Shown here piece by piece: positions 28,910 through 64,000 of a stretch of 64,000 nucleotides of DNA. The position numbers were made by a program, and so were the translations under genes. The stretch lies in NCBI RefSeq assembly GCF_001619985.1, contig NW_017264204.1, positions 713,090 through 777,089 of the forward strand, read 5' to 3'. The notes under the pieces were generated by a model that saw nothing but the letters and a program-made list of their open reading frames with translations, had not been told where the DNA came from and searched no databases. Origin of the DNA: Xylona heveae TC161. Its lineage: Eukaryota; Ascomycota; Xylonomycetes; Xylonales; Xylonaceae. Within the stretch, counting starts at the first letter, position 1. Every line of letters starts with the position of its first letter.

Positions 28910-29681
28910 GCACAGGATCGCAAAGAGGATTTAAAAAAATGATAATACAGTTTCTGAGGCATCATCGACAACGCTTAGTGCAAGATGGCTCAGGCCTTTT
29001 GGAAATGATGAGGGTGGGACAATGTGGCTTTATTAATGCTTCAAAGCGTATTTCAGCGGCAATTGAATCTCTTTTCGAAAAATAATGGAGAGAAATGAAT
29101 GCCCAAATTACTTCTGGTCGATTATTTACTATATCTATCAATTCAATATCATTATAACTCGTGTTTGATGATATATCATTACCAAGGTGATGGTTTATAT
29201 CGTCATCAATTCACATGGTTGGCCGTTAGTGGTAATTCCCTGTATATTCATGCCTCGCCTAGTTAATGCAGACATTAAAGCATAACTAAAGTTATGCTTT
29301 AACCTAGAGTGGAAGAACCCCAACGCCCCTTTCAACGCTAACCGCCGGCTTTAATTGCGGCAGATGACGTTCGGGATCCTGCCAAGAAACTGGGAACAAG
29401 GGCAACCCTACGACTAGAACTCACAACGCTTACAATCTTTGCGGTTTCACGTCAGGATAACATAGAGATCTCGTTGCCACGTGCGCAATTAAGCTTTTTG
29501 ATAGGATTACCTATCTCACACTGCGAACGACCTCCTGTCGCTGGTATCAAACCGTGTCAATGAATCTTCTGGAAGTGATTAATTAAACGATCCGTCTTCG
29601 ACTTCGTTTACATTGGAATATATTTCAGAAAGAAGAGAATCCAAGATATCTTAAGAGCTACTGCACTTCTACTTCAGCGCA
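28910..29681. other. Divergent spacer with palindromes
   Basis: About 770 bases between the HNH gene (-) and the six-TM protein gene (+). The centre is AT-rich and holds a perfect 13-bp-arm palindrome (29275-29302) and a looser inverted repeat around TGATGATATA (29167) and TATCGTCATCA (29198). No coding content seen. Confidence 0.55.
29275..29302. repeat. Perfect palindrome, 13-bp arms, 2-nt centre
   Basis: The left arm TTAAAGCATAACT and right arm AGTTATGCTTTAA are exact reverse complements separated by AA. It is intergenic, could extrude as a cruciform, and could be a dimeric protein-binding site or a transposon-end relic. Confidence 0.85.
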
Positions 29682-31554: not shown

Positions 31555-32964
31555 ATACATAGAACTCTTGTCTTACCTTTCCTTTTCCCTTTTTTTTTTT
31601 TTTTTTTACTTCGTTTTCTGTTTTTCATTTCTTGTTTTCTCCAACTCGCAATCACTACTTGAGTTGTTGTTATTGTCCGAGTTGGATATAGATACCACAT
31701 TTTGCAAATCTCTTTCGAGCGAGCCAGAGGTATATACCATGCGAAACATGGAGGGATTAAAAGTCTTCTTCTTTTTTTCTTTCTTTCTTTTCCTTTTCTT
31801 TTAAATGTGCTGCATGAAAACAAGCACGGCTTACGATCAGGTCTATGACGGCTTGTGCGAAGTATTCTGTCTCAATTTTTCGATATAAATTACCTTATAC
31901 ATTAGCAAAAAAAGACTATTTTACACTATGCAAGAAAATGCGTATATAAGGATCTGTCAGCTACACCAAAAAAAAAAGATCGTATTTCCAACAATGAGAT
32001 TTTGTGAGAGTGTGAAGAAAAGAGAAAAGATGAAATAAAGAGAAAAAAGGAAAGGGAAAAAAAAAAAAAAAAAAAAAAAACATGCAACAGCGGGGATTCG
32101 CTGGTCGTCACCGACCCAACTACTAGTCCGCCGATCTGAGGCTTATGTATGGCAGAGCGGACGGGATGCCCAGTTCTCCTCAGTCTATGGTCGCATGTAC
32201 TATAAACGTATTCAGCTCGGTATATAACGTTCCCACCTACTCCCTACCTTCGTTTGCTACTTGTTGTCTTTCAGTGCCGCCTTGCCGTCAGCCGCGCTTC
32301 GTGTTGCCGAGACATAACCACTATTGACTGACATAAATAAACTAGTTTGCTTAAAGCAGAATACATTATAGGAATAGTATATCGCGTTTCTAATTATAAG
32401 TTATCCTAATAGGAGAAATTTGAAGCAAAAAAGAGGGGAAATATATATCTGCTCTATAAGCAAGAACAAGGCACCAATAATTGATAGTAATTCCTTGCCA
32501 TGGTAGTAATGCATTATAACTAAATGCATTTTTGGCAGGATACGGTGCCGTTGGCTGTTGTTTTTGCAGTTCCCTGATTTCCTCTGGTAGCAGAGTTATA
32601 TAGATATATTCTTTTTTGCATGCATTTCCCTGAGAGAAGTAATGGGGGTGAGTGGGATGCTCAAACAGACACCCGGAAGCCTCCTTTGTATAAGAATAGA
32701 ACAACGTGCGCAATTGCGCGCTTGGTAATGGCCGTCTGAGTGATGCAATGGCGCGAATATGGTGTGACCGAAACCCCTTTCTAAAGGGATAATATATGCC
32801 TGGAGGTGCCCGAGGATTCTAGGGCTTGAAGGTATATATGCTTGTTTAAGGGCCATTCAAGGCATCCTACCACGTCGATTGACGAGGAATAGTGGTCTCG
32901 TCCGAAGACGATCATATCAGCGTATAAATAGATCAAGTGCTGTGGCAAACGAACTTGCTCAGCA
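31555..32964. other. Convergent AT-rich spacer with homopolymers
   Basis: About 1.4 kb between 3' ends. Contains T runs near 31590-31607, a 24-A run at 32057-32080 and T/C-rich 3' UTR-like sequence. No coding content supported. Confidence 0.55.
32057..32080. repeat. Poly-A tract (24 A)
   Basis: Uninterrupted A run in an intergenic region. Confidence 0.9.
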
Positions 32965-40625: not shown

Positions 40626-42309
40626 ATGGATGTGCCATGGGCAACATCACTCAAAGATATTTATCCAGAAAGTGTCTGGGGTATCCAAAAACAGCGTTGG
40701 GAACATCTCTTGGCCAAATTCGAAGAACATTATGGGAGACCAGCGGAATTTGTCTCGCGAAGTCCTGGAAGGGTTAATATTATCGGTGAGGTGTGTCATC
40801 GATCAAGAGATTAGACATTATAATTGCACCCCGTAATCAACTGTGGGAAACTAACATCATGCTAGCATATTGATTACTCTTTGTACGAGGTTCTGCCCAT
40901 GGCAGTCACGGCAGACTTGTTGCTGGCCGTTGCTCTCAAGCGTGGCTCACCGCAGCCGCGCTTCCGCATAGCCAACGTTCGTTCTGAAAAGTTTCCTGAG
41001 CGCGACTTTGGCCTAAACAATGAAGGCGACGTAGAGATCGATCCCTCGTCTCTGGAATGGTCCAACTATTTCAAGTCAGGCCTCCGCGGGGCGCTCCAGT
41101 TGCTTCGGAAAAATCACCCCAAGTTTGCACTTCAAGGAATGGACATCCTTGTGGACGGAACCGTTCCTAGTGGCGGTGGTCTCTCGAGCAGTGCAGCGTT
41201 TGTCTGCGCCAGCTCCCTCGCCGTAATGGTGGCTAGTGGTGAAGAGAAGGTGGACAAGCGCGAATTGGTTGAGCTCGCCATTGTTTCTGAGCGCGCGGTG
41301 GGAGTCAATTCTGGAGGGTCAGTTTTCTTTTGTCATTTTTTGGTTGTGCTTTGCTAATAAGGTCCGCAGGATGGATCAGTCTGCGTCCGTGTTTTCGATA
41401 AGAGGCAATGCTCTCTACGTATCCTTCAAACCAGAGCTGCGAGCGGAACCCATAAAGTTCCCTAACGTCAACCCTGAATTGACCTTTCTGATTGCGCAGA
41501 GTTTCGTAGCTGCGGACAAGCATGTGACTGCACCAGTGTGTTATAATCTCCGTGTCGTTGAGTGTAGCTTGGCCGCGGAATTTCTTGCCAAGAAACTAGG
41601 TCTCAAGCGTGCACTGCCAAAGGACACGAGCCCTTTGCAAGTCAGCCTTCGAGGTTTCCAGGATACTTACTTTGAAGAGATTGGCGGTATACAGGACAAC
41701 AACCAAACCGTCGTGTCTGACTTTTCCAAGCAGTTGGAGGAGCTTGTTGAGCTCACCAAGCGGACGCTTACGCAAGAGGATGGCTACACGCGAGAAGAGA
41801 TCTCCGCAATTGTGGGAATCCCGGTAGAGGAAATAAACCAGCGGTTTATGTCTCGTTTTCCAGTCCGTGCCGAGCGCTTCTTGCTTCGACAACGTGCGCT
41901 CCACGTCTTCACCGAGGCTCAACGCGTGCTGAGGTTTAGGTCTCTGTTGTCTAATCCGCCAAGTTTGGATGAATCGCTGCTGCGCAGCCTTGGCGCTCTT
42001 ATGCAAGAAACACAAACTTCATGCCGTGAGCTTTATGACTGCAGCTGCCCGGAGCTCGACGAAATGTGTAAGCTTGCGCGCGAGGCAGGAGCGTACGGTG
42101 GTCGATTAACCGGGGCTGGGTGGGGTGGATGTTCCGTCCATCTTGTACCTTATGACAAAGTGGACGAGGTGAAGAAGATGTGGGAGACAAGGTACTACCG
42201 CCGGAAGTTTCCCAACATGGCAGAAGACAAGTTGGCTGAAGCTGTGGTAGTCAGCAAGCCGGGAAGTGGCAGTACAGTTTTCAAGGTCACGGGAAGAAAC
42301 GTCCTATGA
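40626..42309 (+). CDS. gal1: Galactokinase (GHMP kinase)
   Basis: Three exons, 40626..40790, 40866..41317 and 41370..42309, give 518 aa. The enzyme phosphorylates galactose at C1 with ATP, the entry step of the Leloir pathway, in the cytosol. Motif 1 SPGRVNIIGEHIDY is split by intron 1 between Glu and His. Motif 2, the ATP loop, is VPSGGGLSSSAAFVCASS. Motif 3 is GGRLTGAGWGGCSVHLV near residue 435. The galactose-binding acid follows the GVNSGGMDQSAS segment, which intron 2 splits. Intron 1 uses a GTGTGT donor, weaker than its neighbours, but the phase and the motif leave no alternative. Length and motif spacing are normal for fungal Gal1/GalE-type galactokinases. The next gene lies 450 bp downstream on the same strand and is unrelated. 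Confidence 0.96.
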
Positions 42310-42758: not shown

Positions 42759-45700
42759 ATGGAGGAAAATTATATTCGTCCACCTGCCCCGGCAGCTCAA
42801 AGCATGCTTAAGAGGCGAAGAATTCCTGTCTGGGCCATTTTTCCAGAGATTCCCGATACTGTCAACTTTTCCCCTCAGACAAATTCTGCTTCCCGTGAAA
42901 CAACCTGTACCGTTATTCATACTGGTTCAGGAACTCAAAGTCAGTGGTATGGATACCGTGGCCAAGATTCACACTCAAAAGATGCACATATCAACTCCTC
43001 GGAGTCGATTCCTTGCTCAATAGCAAGCTACCCTACTTCGCGTTCCAGCTCGTCTAAGACTGCCCAGGTCTCTAAAGAACATAACCCAAGTCGAGGTTCA
43101 GATCCTTACAGCAGCCCAGGTGCAGGCAGCTTAACACGGGGTAAAAGTCCCTATATTGACTCACATACAGTCAGAGGCCACACTAACTCCTCCAAACAAT
43201 GCCCTTCGCGGAAAACCCGAAGTTGGACATCTTGGGTCCTTCAAAGCAATAGCAGTTGGGCTCCAAATGCGCAAAGCGCCTCCTCCAAATCTCCCTCCAC
43301 AACGTCATCGACTTTCGCCGAAAATTTCAAGCTTGAGCGTGCATTAGGGTGGCTTTCCAACCTCCCGTCGCCAGAGCCAAGCCCTTCGGCTGTGAACAAG
43401 ACACAACCCACCTTTACTCGCCGTCATCAACCTCCTCCATCTTTCGATACCGTTAGGCTTCCTTCGCCTGTCTACCTGGGTGGACGTGCATCTTCAGCAG
43501 CAGCCAGCACACGTACCTTGTATCTCCCGACGCGTTCCGCTGATCCCTCAAGTTCAGCTTCAATCGACCTTGGCGCAGCACAACGGCATGTCCTTTTCAG
43601 CCAACCTCCCACAAGCCGTAGATGGCATTTCGGCTCCATACCAAGATTGGCAAAAGAATATCTCGACTGCCACATTCGACTCCAAACTCCGAGCTATATA
43701 TCTGAGGAGCTCGGGCCGGAGTTGTCATCATCGTCCTCTTCCTCCACCTCGATCCTCGTTGTGGGAACTAAAGAAAGTGTCCCACTTGAAAATGCCTCCG
43801 TATCCAAGCCAGGGCTCCCAGGTAAGTCAATCATCTTCCGTCGTTGTCAACCCTTTCTCAAGTTTTGCAGATTCCACAGCGAAGGGAGTACGACCACGAA
43901 GTCTCTTGTCAAAGAATTCAGCGCGGCCGGATAGTACCTCTGTGGTAGAGGCAGAGGCAAAAAACGCCCCCGGTGACGAATGTTTGTATCCACCCCACCA
44001 GAATTAAGTCATGTAAATTCTAATGGAAGTGCAGTCTCTCTAGCTCAAAGATCGCCCGGCGAAATTCACTCGCAATCGGATGTGGCGATATCAGACCGTT
44101 TTAGAAAATGCTCAACAGACGAGTACAAGATGGAAAAAGCCCCAGGTAAAGGAAAACTTCATTTCCAAGTCATCACTGCTAATTTCATACAGATTATGCA
44201 GCTCCGTATGTAGGGCGATCGCCTCGCAGCGCAGCAATATCCGAATCCTCATGCAGGCGGACGGAAGAAAAAGACGGCATAACGGAGGGGCATTATATGA
44301 TTTTGCAGCAACAAGACGCCAAAGGTATGACCCCGAAAGTATTCACTTTACCCAAGTGCTAATGTTGAAGAAGTTTCTGAGAAAGAATGTTCAGGCACTA
44401 GATCCAATTCAGACGAAAGCAAATCGAACGGTTCTCTCAATGTGGAAGAGCATGATGATTTCACAACGAAACCAGGTACGTGGTAATCTCCTCATTCACT
44501 AGGTTTTCTATGCTAACCCAACGGTAGGGTCCATTTCTCCCACACTAGACGCATCCAAGCACTCATCACCAAATTCCTCGAGAACGGATCGCACTCATCC
44601 TTACGGGCCGATCCTGCGGCCATGCCTGAGAGGTAAGTACTCTAGTCTATCATTCTTCGGAACAACGCTAACGAGATTCCAGAATTCAGCGCTTACGGGC
44701 CATACATAAGCAGTGGCCCGACTGAGCCACACCGCACAGGTAAAGTCGGCTTCTTTCTCACTTAGACCTACATTAATTGACGCTTAGCAGGTGGTGTGGC
44801 TCAGAGTGTTCACAACGAGGGGGCCGGCAAGCTGGCCTTACGGCCCCCTCATGGGCGTTACGGTAAGTCAGGAGACTATTTCACTGGCTGGCTATCTCAA
44901 GCTGATAAGATAACAGTCACTCCTATGAGGGACTCGCCCGTTGGCACCGCACAATGCGGCAGCCAACATGGCTCAGAAGGAAGCGGCCCTTCTGGTCCAC
45001 CCCCGGGGGAGATTTCATCCTCTGACTCCCCCGGGGAACCGCACCAAGGGCCACGGTCCCTTGGTGTGGATTCAGACCCGAGAGCTCGAAATAGCTTGTT
45101 TCGAGCTCTCGGGTCTCCCTCTCATGCGTCAACCATGAGAGGGGAGCTCGAGCCTGACTGCGCTTCTAGCCGGTCAGGCTCGAGTAGTAGGATCCTAGGA
45201 TCGAATTTGATCCTAGGATCCTCTGAAGCCAGGACATTGGACTGGCTTCTGCATTGGGAGGGGTCTTTGCACCCCTCCCAGTGTGCTTTGGCGTCACCGC
45301 CTTTGGGTGACGCCGAAGCGATCCCCGGGGAAAACTTCCCCGGCGGTCACAGCGGGTCCTCCACGGAGGCCGCCGCCGTTCTCGCAACTCCCCTGAGGGC
45401 ACTGATCCCTCGGGTGCGGAGAACGGCTGCGTGGAGTGACCCGCTCCCTGACCCACCCCGGCCCTTGTGGCCGGAGGTGAGGGGTAGAGGGGGCCTCTTT
45501 GAGAGGCCCTCCTCTCGTGCTGCATCTGTCCCACCGACGATGCCGTCCGACTTGTTCGGACGTTCCTCACCTGTGCCTGGGCCAGTTCCAAAGCCTTTGG
45601 CATTGGCGTATTCGCCACTCCCCGGACCAGTGTGTCCGGTCAACCCCGACATTGCGTACGGGGTATGGGAGCGGCTGGAGGAAGGCGGCTTGCGAGAGCC

Positions 45701-46340
45701 GCCTTTCGAGGCCGCTGGGAGTGGGGAGGACCCCAACCCCCGGTTCCGGGTCTCCCCACCACGGAGCTCCGACGTCTCATTTAAGACGATTGGATCAAAC
45801 CTCCGGCGGTGGTGGAGAAACGGATCCTGGGCCATTGCGTCTCTGGGGTCGCGGCTAACGGTCAGTACGCCGTCGTGGCGCTGGCCTGGCCCTTCCCCAG
45901 AGCACACACCACCAGAGTCAGTGTCTTCACTGGCATTTTCTAGCTCTGGTGGTGGGCCCAGCTCGTCAGGCGCGGCTGCCGGTGGTGCTGTGCATCAGCA
46001 TCACCACTATCCGCGCCTGACTCGCGGCCGCGTCCGGCTTCATAATGCCATGGACGCGGCGGCCAGCCTTCCGGGCCGGCTCCAACCCAGCGTCATTGCG
46101 CTGCTCCGCGCGCTAGAAGCCGTGGCCCGTTTTGTGGCCCGGCTTCTGGCGTACGTTGCCAGAGCACTTGGGGATGACATCCCCAATGCCTGGCGACGTC
46201 GGTGGCGCTGGGCGAGCTTCCTGCAGTTTTGGCAGGACCAGATGGAGCACGGGTACATTGAAGGAGCGATTCAAACGTTCCTTTGGTCGTGCCCGGCGCT
46301 CCTCTGTGGGTCGCCCTTTTGCTGCTGCGACCCAGAGTAG
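42759..46340 (+). CDS. Unrecognised nine-exon gene; last exon is a hairpin array
   Basis: Exons: 42759..43821, 43871..43972, 44035..44145, 44193..44324, 44371..44475, 44528..44632, 44683..44739, 44791..44862 and 44917..46340. All eight introns (46-62 nt) are GT-AG, mostly with CTAA(C/T) branch sites, and all are phase 1, so each internal exon is a multiple of three. CDS 3171 nt, 1056 aa. Residues 1-354 are Ser/Pro/Thr-rich and look disordered; exons 2-8 add 19-44 residues each. Exon 9 (about 475 residues) is Pro/Ser/Gly-rich, then helical near the end (VIALLRALEAVARFVARLLA), and closes with Cys-rich CPALLCGSPFCCCDPE. I recognise no domain or signal peptide. Exon 9 is visibly GC-richer than the other exons and built almost wholly of tandem inverted repeats (see the array entry). 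Intron 2 (62 nt) was chosen over shorter alternatives for its CTAAT branch site. Whether it is translated or serves as a structured RNA is open. Confidence 0.6.
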
Positions 46341-46366
46341 ACTTTTTCGTAAAGTCTACTCTGGGT
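44690..46366 (+). repeat. Tandem array of about 30 distinct short inverted repeats (hairpins)
   Basis: Arms (left/right) that are perfect or carry one G-T pair: 44722-44733/44793-44804; 44817-44826/44841-44850; 44974-44980/44988-44994; 45001-45011/45026-45036; 45042-45050/45058-45066; 45074-45091/45099-45116 (18 bp); 45117-45126/45134-45143; 45147-45158/45173-45184; 45189-45202/45209-45222; 45225-45232/45242-45249; 45252-45263/45272-45283; 45285-45298/45306-45319; 45325-45332/45336-45343; nested set 45351-45364/45431-45445 with 45375-45383/45419-45427 and 45395-45399/45407-45411; 45491-45498/45502-45509; 45544-45550/45556-45562; 45682-45690/45697-45705; 45721-45727/45753-45759; 45841-45848/45895-45902; 45907-45917/45944-45954; 45965-45975/46011-46021 with 45981-45989/45997-46005; 46027-46035/46052-46060; 46115-46122/46140-46147; 46168-46175/46179-46186; 46219-46224/46232-46237; 46307-46313/46328-46334; 46331-46344/46352-46365. 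Sequences differ from hairpin to hairpin. In the first half spacers are 0-7 nt. Many loops are exactly 7 or 14 nt. Confidence 0.9.
46331..46365 (+). terminator. Terminal 14-bp hairpin spanning the stop codon
   Basis: CCCAGAGTAGACTT and AAGTCTACTCTGGG are exact reverse complements with a 7-nt loop (TTTCGTA; its ends can also pair). The TAG stop (46338-46340) lies within the left arm. It ends the hairpin array. Calling it a 3'-end signal is only a guess; the structure itself is plain. Confidence 0.6.
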
Positions 46367-46971
46367 GGTCAGCCTGGTCACTGGCCCACTAAGCCCCTTT
46401 TTGCCATGTCTGTAGAAGGGACGAGAGGCGGTGGCAAGTGCAGTTAGCAGCCAAGGGCGAAGTCCCGGGTGGTGAGCTCGGTTTATGGTATTGCCAATGG
46501 TAACTGGCCCGTGTTGACAGGCACAGGTGAGGAAAGCACACCAATTTCAACCCCTCCGCGGGTTCGGCATGGTAGTTTACGGAACTTTAAGGATTCGGGC
46601 TGTTGTTGTTTCTTTTATGTGTTTATGGTTTTTTGGTGAGGGGAGAGAGGGGAAAGCGGAGCGGGAAGGGGACAGGTGGGGCAAGGGGAGCCGGGGATTA
46701 TGGCGGATACGGGCCGAGAGTTAAAGCGTGTATCACTGTACCTCTAATCACAAGCCGCAATCGAAGACTAGTAGACTAGTAGAACGCATGGCGCGCCGTT
46801 GCCAGTTATTATTTACTTATTTTGGTTTGGAATTTCATGCCAACTTTTAACTTGATCTTGGAACGAAGTCCCGAGGCTCGCTGGATTGAGGTACCTGTTA
46901 GTTATCTCATCTCCAAGTGACGAAGCTACATTACCTGCTTTGGCAGCCGAAATCAGCGGCGTTTCACCATT
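46366..46971. other. Spacer between the hairpin gene and tRNA-Pro
   Basis: About 600 bases, the first 100 probably 3' UTR of the hairpin gene and still GC-rich. A weak TTGCCA/TGGCAA pair (46400-46436) is the last trace of the array style. The upstream control region of the tRNA is at the right. No coding content supported. Confidence 0.5.
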
Positions 46972-47106
46972 GGCTCAATGGTCTAGTGGTATGATTGTCG
47001 CTTTGGGTTTTGCAATTGTTTGTTGACGCCGCTTTGGCCTCATCTTACTGCTTGTAACTTGAAATTTGGATGTGACAGGTCCCGAGTTCGATCCTCGGTT
47101 GAGCCC
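46972..47106 (+). tRNA. tRNA-Pro (UGG), with a 63-nt intron
   Basis: Exon 1 is 46972..47007 and exon 2 47071..47106. The acceptor stem GGCTCAA pairs with TTGAGCC, and the discriminator base is C. The D-arm A-box region is GTCTAGTGGTATGATT. The anticodon stem GTCGC pairs with GTGAC (one G-U). The anticodon loop is TT-TGG-G|T, with anticodon TGG at 47004-47006 and the intron after base 37, the canonical position. The T arm is CCGAG-TTCGATC-CTCGG (B box). CCA is not encoded, as usual for nuclear tRNAs. The intron is long for a fungal tRNA. Confidence 0.93.
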
Positions 47107-63659: not shown

Positions 63660-63922
63660 CTATGTGGTAATGTAGTTGTTGCTAATGAATACCACCTGCA
63701 CGGATGCGAGAGCCACTGCCGCGGTGAAAACCTCGATTCGACGAGCCGTAGTGAAATAGGTCAGGCTGGCAGAGAACAAAATGGAGAAGAAAAGGATGAA
63801 TAAAAGGCGCCACAGGGTACGAGGGATATAATATAAGGCGAAAATCGAAATAGTCGGCATGAGTGAAGATATGACAACACTGATCCAGATGACGATATTT
63901 TCAAGTAGGCTGCGCCCAAACC
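63660..63922 (-). CDS. C-terminal exon of a DUF6594 membrane protein (partial)
   Basis: The frame from about 63922 down to the TAG stop at 63660 encodes GFGRSLLENIVIWISVVISS, then a hydrophobic pair ISIFALYYIPRTLWRLLFIL and FSILFSASLTYF, and the closing motif TARRIEVFTAAVALASVQVV. This end pattern (a loop of T-x-x-R-R, then F-x-A-x-A-x-x-A-V-x-V-V-F) is that of DUF6594 proteins, abundant in filamentous ascomycetes and of unknown role, with two or three TM helices at the C-terminus. An in-frame TAA lies just upstream, so an acceptor (CTTTTAAG at 63923-63930) is assumed. The rest of the gene lies beyond the window, or this is a relic. An ATG at 63860 could start a short product. Confidence 0.6.
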
Positions 63923-64000
63923 CTTAAAAGCCCAACCCTACCCTGTACCCTACCCACTTTTCCTACAGGTTTAGGGTCGATATTTCTTCTCCAAAACCCA

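Follow-up and report, generated by a model that had tools for sequence, protein, structure and literature searches.

Nearly continuous predicted hairpins in the open coding end of a Xylona heveae gene

The host gene and its hairpin array

The window, which is the whole 64,000-nt stretch of Xylona heveae TC161 DNA analysed here, contains a predicted gene whose last three exons, by the gene model, are covered by a dense array of hairpins that ends 26 nt beyond the stop codon (Table 1). The initial annotation had assigned the array to the last exon, where most of it does lie, and had given the accompanying open frame as about 475 codons; the long frame is real and within the last exon runs for 473 codons without a stop. 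All eight introns, as inferred from the exon joins, are in phase 1, and the one at 43982-44034, which has GTTTGT as its donor, was chosen among 17 options of 20-129 nt that keep the frame. Were intron 44740-44790 left unspliced, an in-frame TAG at 44763-44765 would be read upstream of the array.

Table 1. Features of the predicted gene and of the hairpin array (positions within the window)
Feature	Position	Strand	Description
Host gene, predicted	42759..46340	+	1051 codons, nine exons; exon joins give one open frame
Exons 1-3 of gene model	42759-43821, 43871-43981, 44035-44145	+	
Exons 4-6 of gene model	44193-44324, 44395-44475, 44528-44632	+	
Exons 7-9 of gene model	44683-44739, 44791-44862, 44917-46340	+	
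Hairpin array	44696..46366	+	32 stem blocks in spliced RNA, gaps 0-13 nt
Splice-spanning hairpin	44722..44804	+	arms 44722-44733 and 44793-44804, 12 bp, perfect
Predicted intron, unstructured	44740..44790	+	folding z +1.9
5' half, after splice-spanning stem	44817..45343	+	small, mostly perfect hairpins, arms up to 18 bp
3' half	45345..46316	+	15 blocks; 7 are domains, nested or branched, of 94-110 nt
C-terminal coding part	46050..46337	+	GC at codon positions 0.68/0.53/0.73
Last hairpin	46330..46366	+	16-bp perfect arms; stop codon TAG 46338-46340 inside

The blocks of the array were defined from the 524 pairs common to wobble-free folds of both strands. In the predicted fold of the spliced RNA 74% of 1583 nt are paired, and the longest unpaired run is 10 nt. 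Some thirty different perfect hairpins had been described, which suits the first half, made up of 16 small and mostly perfect hairpins (block size 19-43 nt and spacing 0-5 nt after the splice-spanning stem), but not the second, where the larger domains carry mismatches and bulges. In the genomic sequence at 44817-46366 there are nine perfect arms of at least 10 bp with loops of at most 30 nt (10, 11, 18, 10, 12, 14, 10, 11 and 16 bp), and the 12-bp stem across intron 44740-44790 brings the total to ten; the hairpins are thus present where they had been placed, with arms of up to 18 bp as reported, though the exact list of lengths is a different one. The 18-bp arm is the longest perfect Watson-Crick helix in the array, and ungapped arms (minimum 6) span 6-18 positions, with a single exception of 26 that contains five mismatches. 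The arm sequences are mutually unrelated and no single unit is repeated, so that the array is neither a tandem repeat, as the annotation had already held, nor CRISPR-like. Compared with the genome, the array DNA matches only itself and, on the opposite strand, three of its own hairpins, and is therefore single-copy. The stems have no clear preference for a codon register (13/13/9 among 35 helices, a set that includes one helix past the array end, at 46401-46437).

Folding relative to controls

Coding sequences are usually only moderately structured. Each part of the gene was folded against 200 dinucleotide shuffles and 200 codon shuffles, the latter preserving both protein and codon use, and the respective z-scores are -17.2 and -13.5 for the first half of the last exon, -12.2 and -11.9 for its second half, and -6.6 and -4.8 for exons 7-8; in each of these three array parts none of the 200 codon shuffles matched the observed energy. 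By the same scores comparable structure is absent from the upstream exons (0.0 and 0.3 for exon 1, +1.9 and +1.2 for exons 2-6) and, with dinucleotide shuffles only, from the introns (+1.9 and -1.0) and the 3' flank (+1.4 and +2.2). Comparison of the folding energy with shuffled copies had been proposed at the outset as a test that could refute the structure, and over 44920-45919 the minimum free energy lies far below the shuffles, with z of -21.1 on the plus and -20.2 on the minus strand (20 shuffles each). When 2335 segments of 300 nt were ranked by structure, the top 14 all fell within the array; one segment well inside it, at 45401, has a z of -3.05, which is within the background range.

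Perfect inverted repeats with arms of at least 8 bp and loops of 3-15 nt number 16 in the 1684 nt of the array, 4 of them with arms of at least 12 bp, against 17, one with such an arm, in all the rest of the window and 37, none with such an arm, in 18 control stretches, which total 173,364 nt or about 0.7% of the same genome. The densest control cluster (stretch L026, 4 per kb) proved on inspection to consist of T-runs, and there is no second array within the sampled 173 kb.

Single synonymous changes mostly weaken the fold: 76% destabilise and 9% stabilise it in the 5' half (350 sampled), 69% and 15% in the middle of the array (350 sampled), and 72% and 15% in the C-terminal part (208 changes), as compared with 37% and 43% in exon 1 (350 sampled). 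A stop-free frame arose in none of 20,000 structure-preserving shuffles. Since the frame is open beyond chance in so structured a stretch, the stretch is dual-coding, and the proposal that a structured RNA here still bears an open frame is upheld by the codon shuffles, the synonymous changes and the frame test alike. The hairpin-packed coding end is a real and extreme observation.

Splicing and strand

The 12-bp stem at 44722-44804 forms only across a splice junction. It reaches 14 bp if one G·U pair is allowed, and its loop is 8 nt (4 nt with the G·U) once intron 44740-44790 has been removed; only 5 of 200,000 shuffles of the flanks reached a 12-bp stem across that intron. The junction of intron 44863-44916 has no bridging stem of more than 2 bp in a simple scan, and only a weak fold block; of the array's two introns, just the first therefore has a strong stem across it.

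Without wobble pairs the energies of the two strands are nearly identical (-867.3 and -869.9). With G·U allowed, the sense strand gains an advantage of 52.9 kcal/mol over the 32 blocks (p=0.0076, one-sided sign-flip), which stems from the magnitude of the differences and not from their number, the blocks being split 18 sense to 14 antisense; the blocks 45618-45721, 46108-46208 and 46210-46316, all three in the 3' half, together contribute 30.9 of the 52.9 kcal/mol. Counted directly, G·U outnumbers A·C mismatches 8:1, and across twelve settings the ratio ranges from 6:4 to 4:0 with G·U always ahead (p=0.27 at 7:4, the one setting tested), a weak sense-strand bias. With one stem that closes only across the splice junction and a sense strand that seems to fold better through G·U, selection would most likely act on the sense mRNA after splicing, a view that these results support without proving.

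Searches for relatives

Residues 820-1051 of the 1051-aa model were scored against 7996 candidates (E <= 0.001), and both the whole model, by words taken from its first 500 residues, and the 473-aa product of the last exon against 8000 candidates each (E <= 10); no protein relative emerged, an absence that says little, as the database's share of fungal proteins is uncertain. A Pfam scan of the first and last exons gave no match to the last-exon product and two matches below the cut-off to the 354-aa first exon. At the gathering score of Rfam 15 the array has no match, and the only match in the window is a 5S rRNA at 32079-32198. The idea of a narnavirus was dropped in view of the missing Rfam and Pfam matches of the array, the inferred introns, and the folding profile of the virus described in the part of PMC8316113 considered here, which had no large hairpins inside it. 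Pattern matches in prokaryote-only genome contigs (56) and in viral contigs (6) yielded no relatives by tblastn.

Comparison with known systems

Clustered pri-miRNAs and roX-type RNAs also carry consecutive stem-loops in one transcript, but these tandem stem-loop RNAs are non-coding, whereas the stems of the array sit in an open frame. There is a close likeness to the genome-wide structure (GORS) of RNA viruses and to ssRNA phages such as MS2, which, as far as the portions of the literature drawn on describe them, also have local stems throughout the coding sequence and energies far under those of shuffled copies. With the same script the mean z is -6.36 for MS2 (7 windows, span 150) and -14.13 for the array (3 windows), and the energy per nt is -0.39 and -0.59 kcal/mol, respectively; the array is thus about twice as extreme, and it lies in a host gene with inferred introns, on a host contig and not in a viral genome, no viral relative having been found with Pfam for the last-exon product, with Rfam for the array or in the viral contigs. 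Template-switch hairpins share with the array their perfect inverted repeats of unrelated sequence, but in the parts of PMC8794818 and PMC8604942 considered they are separate events, while the array has tens of adjoining stems in one gene and is probably sense-biased and splice-aware. Fungal milRNA precursors, in the part of PMC9757828 considered, are likewise hairpins in or near protein-coding genes; the stems of the array are mostly short and are continuous over 1.6 kb.

Interpretation

Four points are established by computation: a structure is predicted, it is restricted to these exons, it surpasses the controls that preserve the protein, and the frame is open more than chance would allow. 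They are best explained by a dual-coding mRNA domain, in which the sense RNA of exons 7-9, once spliced, would form near-continuous local stems while also encoding the C-terminal part of the protein, and we give this reading a probability of roughly 0.5. It suggests that evolution has shaped the messenger RNA itself besides its protein; judged from the searches above, the encoded C-terminal part appears to belong to a single-copy protein whose relatives were not found. Most probably, we infer, the array acts in cis as a structural domain of the mRNA, setting the pace of translation and protecting the message: its stems would pace elongating ribosomes across the C-terminal part, and an array free of ribosomes would offer no long single-stranded stretch to antisense, Argonaute or decay factors, perfect duplexes being held to at most 18 bp. 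Several points weigh against this reading: the strand advantage rests on a few large differences, one of the two junctions in the array lacks a strong stem, the segment at 45401 scores within background, and the 5' half has long perfect helices of a regularity that most RNA stems under selection do not show.

More tentatively, and with the odds rather against it, there may be a class of 'armoured' cellular mRNAs, whose coding region has been selected after splicing against long single-stranded stretches. Only ribosome traffic would open such a coding region, and a single set of letters would specify both a protein and an RNA architecture on the kilobase scale, like that of ssRNA phages. A host gene predicted to be structured beyond an ssRNA phage genome, with a 473-codon frame intact, would be a natural system for studying the passage of ribosomes through stable stems; it would inform the trade-off between protein and RNA constraints, show how sets of perfect stems originate and persist, and allow template switching and selection to be tested directly against each other between strains and sister species.

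The main rival, which we consider unlikely as a full account, is that template switching during replication repeatedly made reverse-complement copies in a tolerant coding region, without any function. In the 5' half most arms are perfect, and their sequences are unrelated, as this would predict, and the parts considered of PMC8794818, for RNA genes, and PMC8604942, for yeast coding genes, document the process, a single step of which can yield a perfect stem. Template switching alone predicts neither confinement to spliced exons nor a stem crossing an intron, neither tiling past the stop codon nor the sense-strand G·U gain, and it also counts against it that the 173 kb of control sequence contained no other array. 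The same part of PMC8794818 discusses a bias towards G-C and U-A and away from C-G and A-U pairs, which may but need not mark the process; in the array A-U pairs exceed U-A pairs (91 vs. 65, p=0.045), the opposite direction, and G-C and C-G pairs (206 vs. 185) do not differ significantly. The initial annotation had named template switching among its explanations, and it is likely to have been the origin of the stems even if selection retained them; exon confinement, the splice-spanning stem and the G·U gain of the sense strand favour selection acting on the mRNA.

Less probable again is a scaffold, whose stems would recruit a structure-specific dsRNA-binding protein for localisation of the mRNA, granule formation or storage. 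A shape kept while the stem sequences are unrelated would agree with this, and the genome has two matches to the dsRNA-binding domain (dsrm), but neither is connected to the host gene, and the binding partner is hypothetical.

We regard it as very improbable that the array is a small-RNA source, diced to miRNA-like species. The part of PMC9757828 considered places fungal mi/milRNA loci in coding regions and is itself suspicious of such loci. Two gene places in the genome match Piwi and two match Dicer_dimer, and the nested domains of about 100 nt look like precursors; a Dicer-type enzyme could therefore act here, in line with the enzyme substrate suggested at the outset, but the 18-bp limit on perfect helices is against it. 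Most of the ungapped arms, at 6-18 positions, are short for Dicer.

An assembly artefact or a DNA-level inverted-repeat element is hardly credible: the array is known here from the assembly alone, and chimeric amplification can generate inverted repeats, but an artefact poorly fits the stop-free frame, the exon confinement and the single-copy DNA, and a DNA element poorly fits the sense-strand G·U gain.

A further observation concerns the predicted intron 44863-44916, which is 54 nt long, in frame and free of stops, the ORF 44796-46340 reading through it, so that it could be retained in the mRNA.

Density and strength of the predicted structure

The initial annotation had described a chain of about 30 perfect hairpins in the last exon of a gene; reading of the sequence, together with tool and script scans for inverted repeats, confirmed such an array at 44690-46366. 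The script scan of the window (arms of at least 8 bp, loops of up to 30 nt) gave 14 perfect inverted repeats in 45001-46000 and five in 46001-47000, all five within the array, and 0-3 in each of the remaining 62 kb. With arms of at least 8 and loops of 3-15, the array holds 16 perfect repeats in 1684 nt, of which four have arms of 12 or longer; the window outside the array holds 17, one of which has such arms, and a control set of 18 further stretches of this genome (173,364 nt in total, less than 1% of the genome) holds 37, or 0.21 per kb, with none of the 37 reaching 12.

Folding energy, which the same annotation proposed comparing with dinucleotide shuffles, is far lower in the array. The stretch 44920-45919 has a minimum free energy of -622.7 kcal/mol on the sense strand vs. 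a shuffle mean of -434.8 (z -21.1); the opposite strand gives -605.6 vs. -436.0 (z -20.2; 20 dinucleotide shuffles for each strand). A survey of 2335 300-nt windows, drawn from the window and the 18 genome stretches and corrected for composition by regression, has its 14 lowest values all within the array, where z falls to -15.4; the minimum over the 2316 non-array windows is -3.58. Nineteen windows, those of the flanks included, carried the label "array"; among the five of them outside that lowest group, the one at 44701 has z -3.45 and three fall outside the lowest 40. The window at 45401, deep in the array, reaches only z -3.05.

Structure throughout the array is a prediction of the folding model: the spliced array (1583 nt) has a predicted folding energy of -961 kcal/mol; 74% of its bases are paired, and its unpaired runs do not exceed 10 nt. 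Under one script (span 150, 60 shuffles each), phage MS2 gave a mean z of -6.36 over seven windows vs. -14.13 for the array over three. The closest likeness in kind among the matches listed is the ordered RNA structure of RNA viruses and of ssRNA phages; those matches, from open-licence literature, include no cellular gene with such a layout, which is no proof of its absence in print.

Extent and layout

Exons were compared with dinucleotide shuffles and with codon shuffles that keep the protein, introns and 3' flank with dinucleotide shuffles. The z values (dinucleotide, then codon) are 0.0 and 0.3 for exon 1, +1.9 and +1.2 for exons 2-6 (43871-44632), -6.6 and -4.8 for exons 7-8 spliced, and -17.2 and -13.5, then -12.2 and -11.9, for the first and second halves of the last exon. 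Values for the two introns within the array are +1.9 and -1.0; the 3' flank (46341-46700), taken in two stretches, gives +1.4 and +2.2. The structure thus begins in exon 7, leaves out the introns and stops 26 nt past the stop codon, which lies within the final hairpin; its edges are sharp, exons 2-6 and the 3' flank being somewhat less structured than their dinucleotide shuffles.

The 524 pairs common to wobble-free folds of both strands form 32 blocks, 0-13 nt apart, which tile 44696-46366: 16 small hairpins to 45343, then 15 blocks, seven of which span 94-110 nt, and one final hairpin.

Features of the locus (window coordinates)
Feature	Position	Strand	Remark
5S rRNA gene	32079-32198	-	RF00001, sole Rfam match in the window
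Perfect inverted repeat, 13 bp, loop 2	29275-29302		longest outside the array in the window (scan, arms at least 10)
Galactokinase-like gene, C-terminal part	41227-42306	+	directly upstream of the host gene
Host gene (gene model)	42759-46340	+	nine exons
First intron in the array	44740-44790	+
Second intron in the array	44863-44916	+
tRNA-Pro (TGG anticodon)	46972-47106	+	63-nt intron; missed by the default ARAGORN run

The molecule that probably folds

If pairing were needed in the DNA, the two strands would be expected to reach similar energies, as is the case when G·U pairs are left out (-867.3 and -869.9). Once these pairs are allowed, the sense strand is ahead by 52.9 kcal/mol summed over all 32 blocks (p 0.0076, one-sided sign-flip test), with 18 blocks favouring sense and 14 against, and with three blocks of the 3' half giving 30.9 of the 52.9 kcal/mol. 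Direct mismatch counts lean in the same direction as the energy, though weakly: G·U to A·C is 8:1 in one count and runs from 6:4 to 4:0 over twelve settings, of which the one put to a test (7:4) gave p 0.27.

At the junction 44739|44791 the exon ends are predicted to pair as a perfect 12-bp stem with an 8-nt loop, or 14 bp and a 4-nt loop with one wobble; in genomic DNA, 59 nt separate the 12-bp arms. Shuffled flanks reached 12 bp there in 5 of 200,000 trials. None of the other seven junctions exceeds 5 bp; that of the second intron in the array carries only a weak fold block. Together, the junction stem, the sense gain in G·U energy and the mismatch counts point, with moderate strength, to the spliced sense mRNA.

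Coding within the array

Over 473 codons the last exon has no stop in its own frame, vs. 11 and 17 in the two alternative frames, and none of 20,000 shuffles preserving both the structure and the pair set produced a stop-free frame. Of the synonymous single changes sampled, those that destabilise the predicted fold make up 76% in the 5' half (n = 350), 69% in the middle (n = 350) and 72% in the C-terminal part (n = 208), vs. 37% in exon 1 (n = 350). In the C-terminal part a synonymous change is destabilising more often than a non-synonymous one (61%, n = 350), while in the 5' half the two do not differ (76% vs. 75%). First, second and third codon positions have a GC content of 0.68, 0.53 and 0.73 in 46050-46337, and the profile is flat (0.62/0.66/0.61) in the first half. 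This fits a constrained protein in the C-terminal part, with the stems left to synonymous sites, and a freer 5' half.

Proposed role and origin

On the most likely reading, the array would act in cis, as a structural domain of its own mRNA. Such a domain would pace ribosomes and, where ribosomes are absent, would fold so that no long single-stranded stretch is exposed. The array may interact with RNAi or editing, since the genome has matches to Piwi, Dicer-dimer, dsRNA-binding and adenosine-deaminase domains; the longest perfect Watson-Crick helix is 18 bp, or 20 bp with a wobble in the predicted fold, and helices of 18-20 bp are short for Dicer.

As to origin, passages of PMC8794818 and PMC8604942 describe perfect stems as creatable in one template-switching event, and the stems of the array may have arisen in this way. 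The pair asymmetry that a passage of PMC8794818 ties to template switching is not seen here (A-U 91, U-A 65; G-C 206, C-G 185). Such an origin is compatible with retention by selection.

The host gene and its neighbours

The nine joined exons are predicted to give a single 1051-codon frame with eight introns, all in phase 1; the intron 43982-44034, outside the array, was picked among 17 frame-keeping options and is uncertain. Searches of the 24.3-Mb genome (17 contigs) found only the self-match of the gene; no Pfam family was found in the scanned parts of the product (first and last exons), and protein searches found no relative. All seven internal exons of the model (57-132 nt) are multiples of 3, which with phase 1 throughout would make each skippable without loss of frame; two 111-nt exons hinge on one uncertain intron.

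The gene lies between the galactokinase-like gene and the intron-bearing tRNA-Pro. The end of the window is the end of the contig (777,089), and its last 80 bases (63920-64000) carry CCCTA- and TTTAGGG-like sequence, which may place the locus close to the end of a chromosome.
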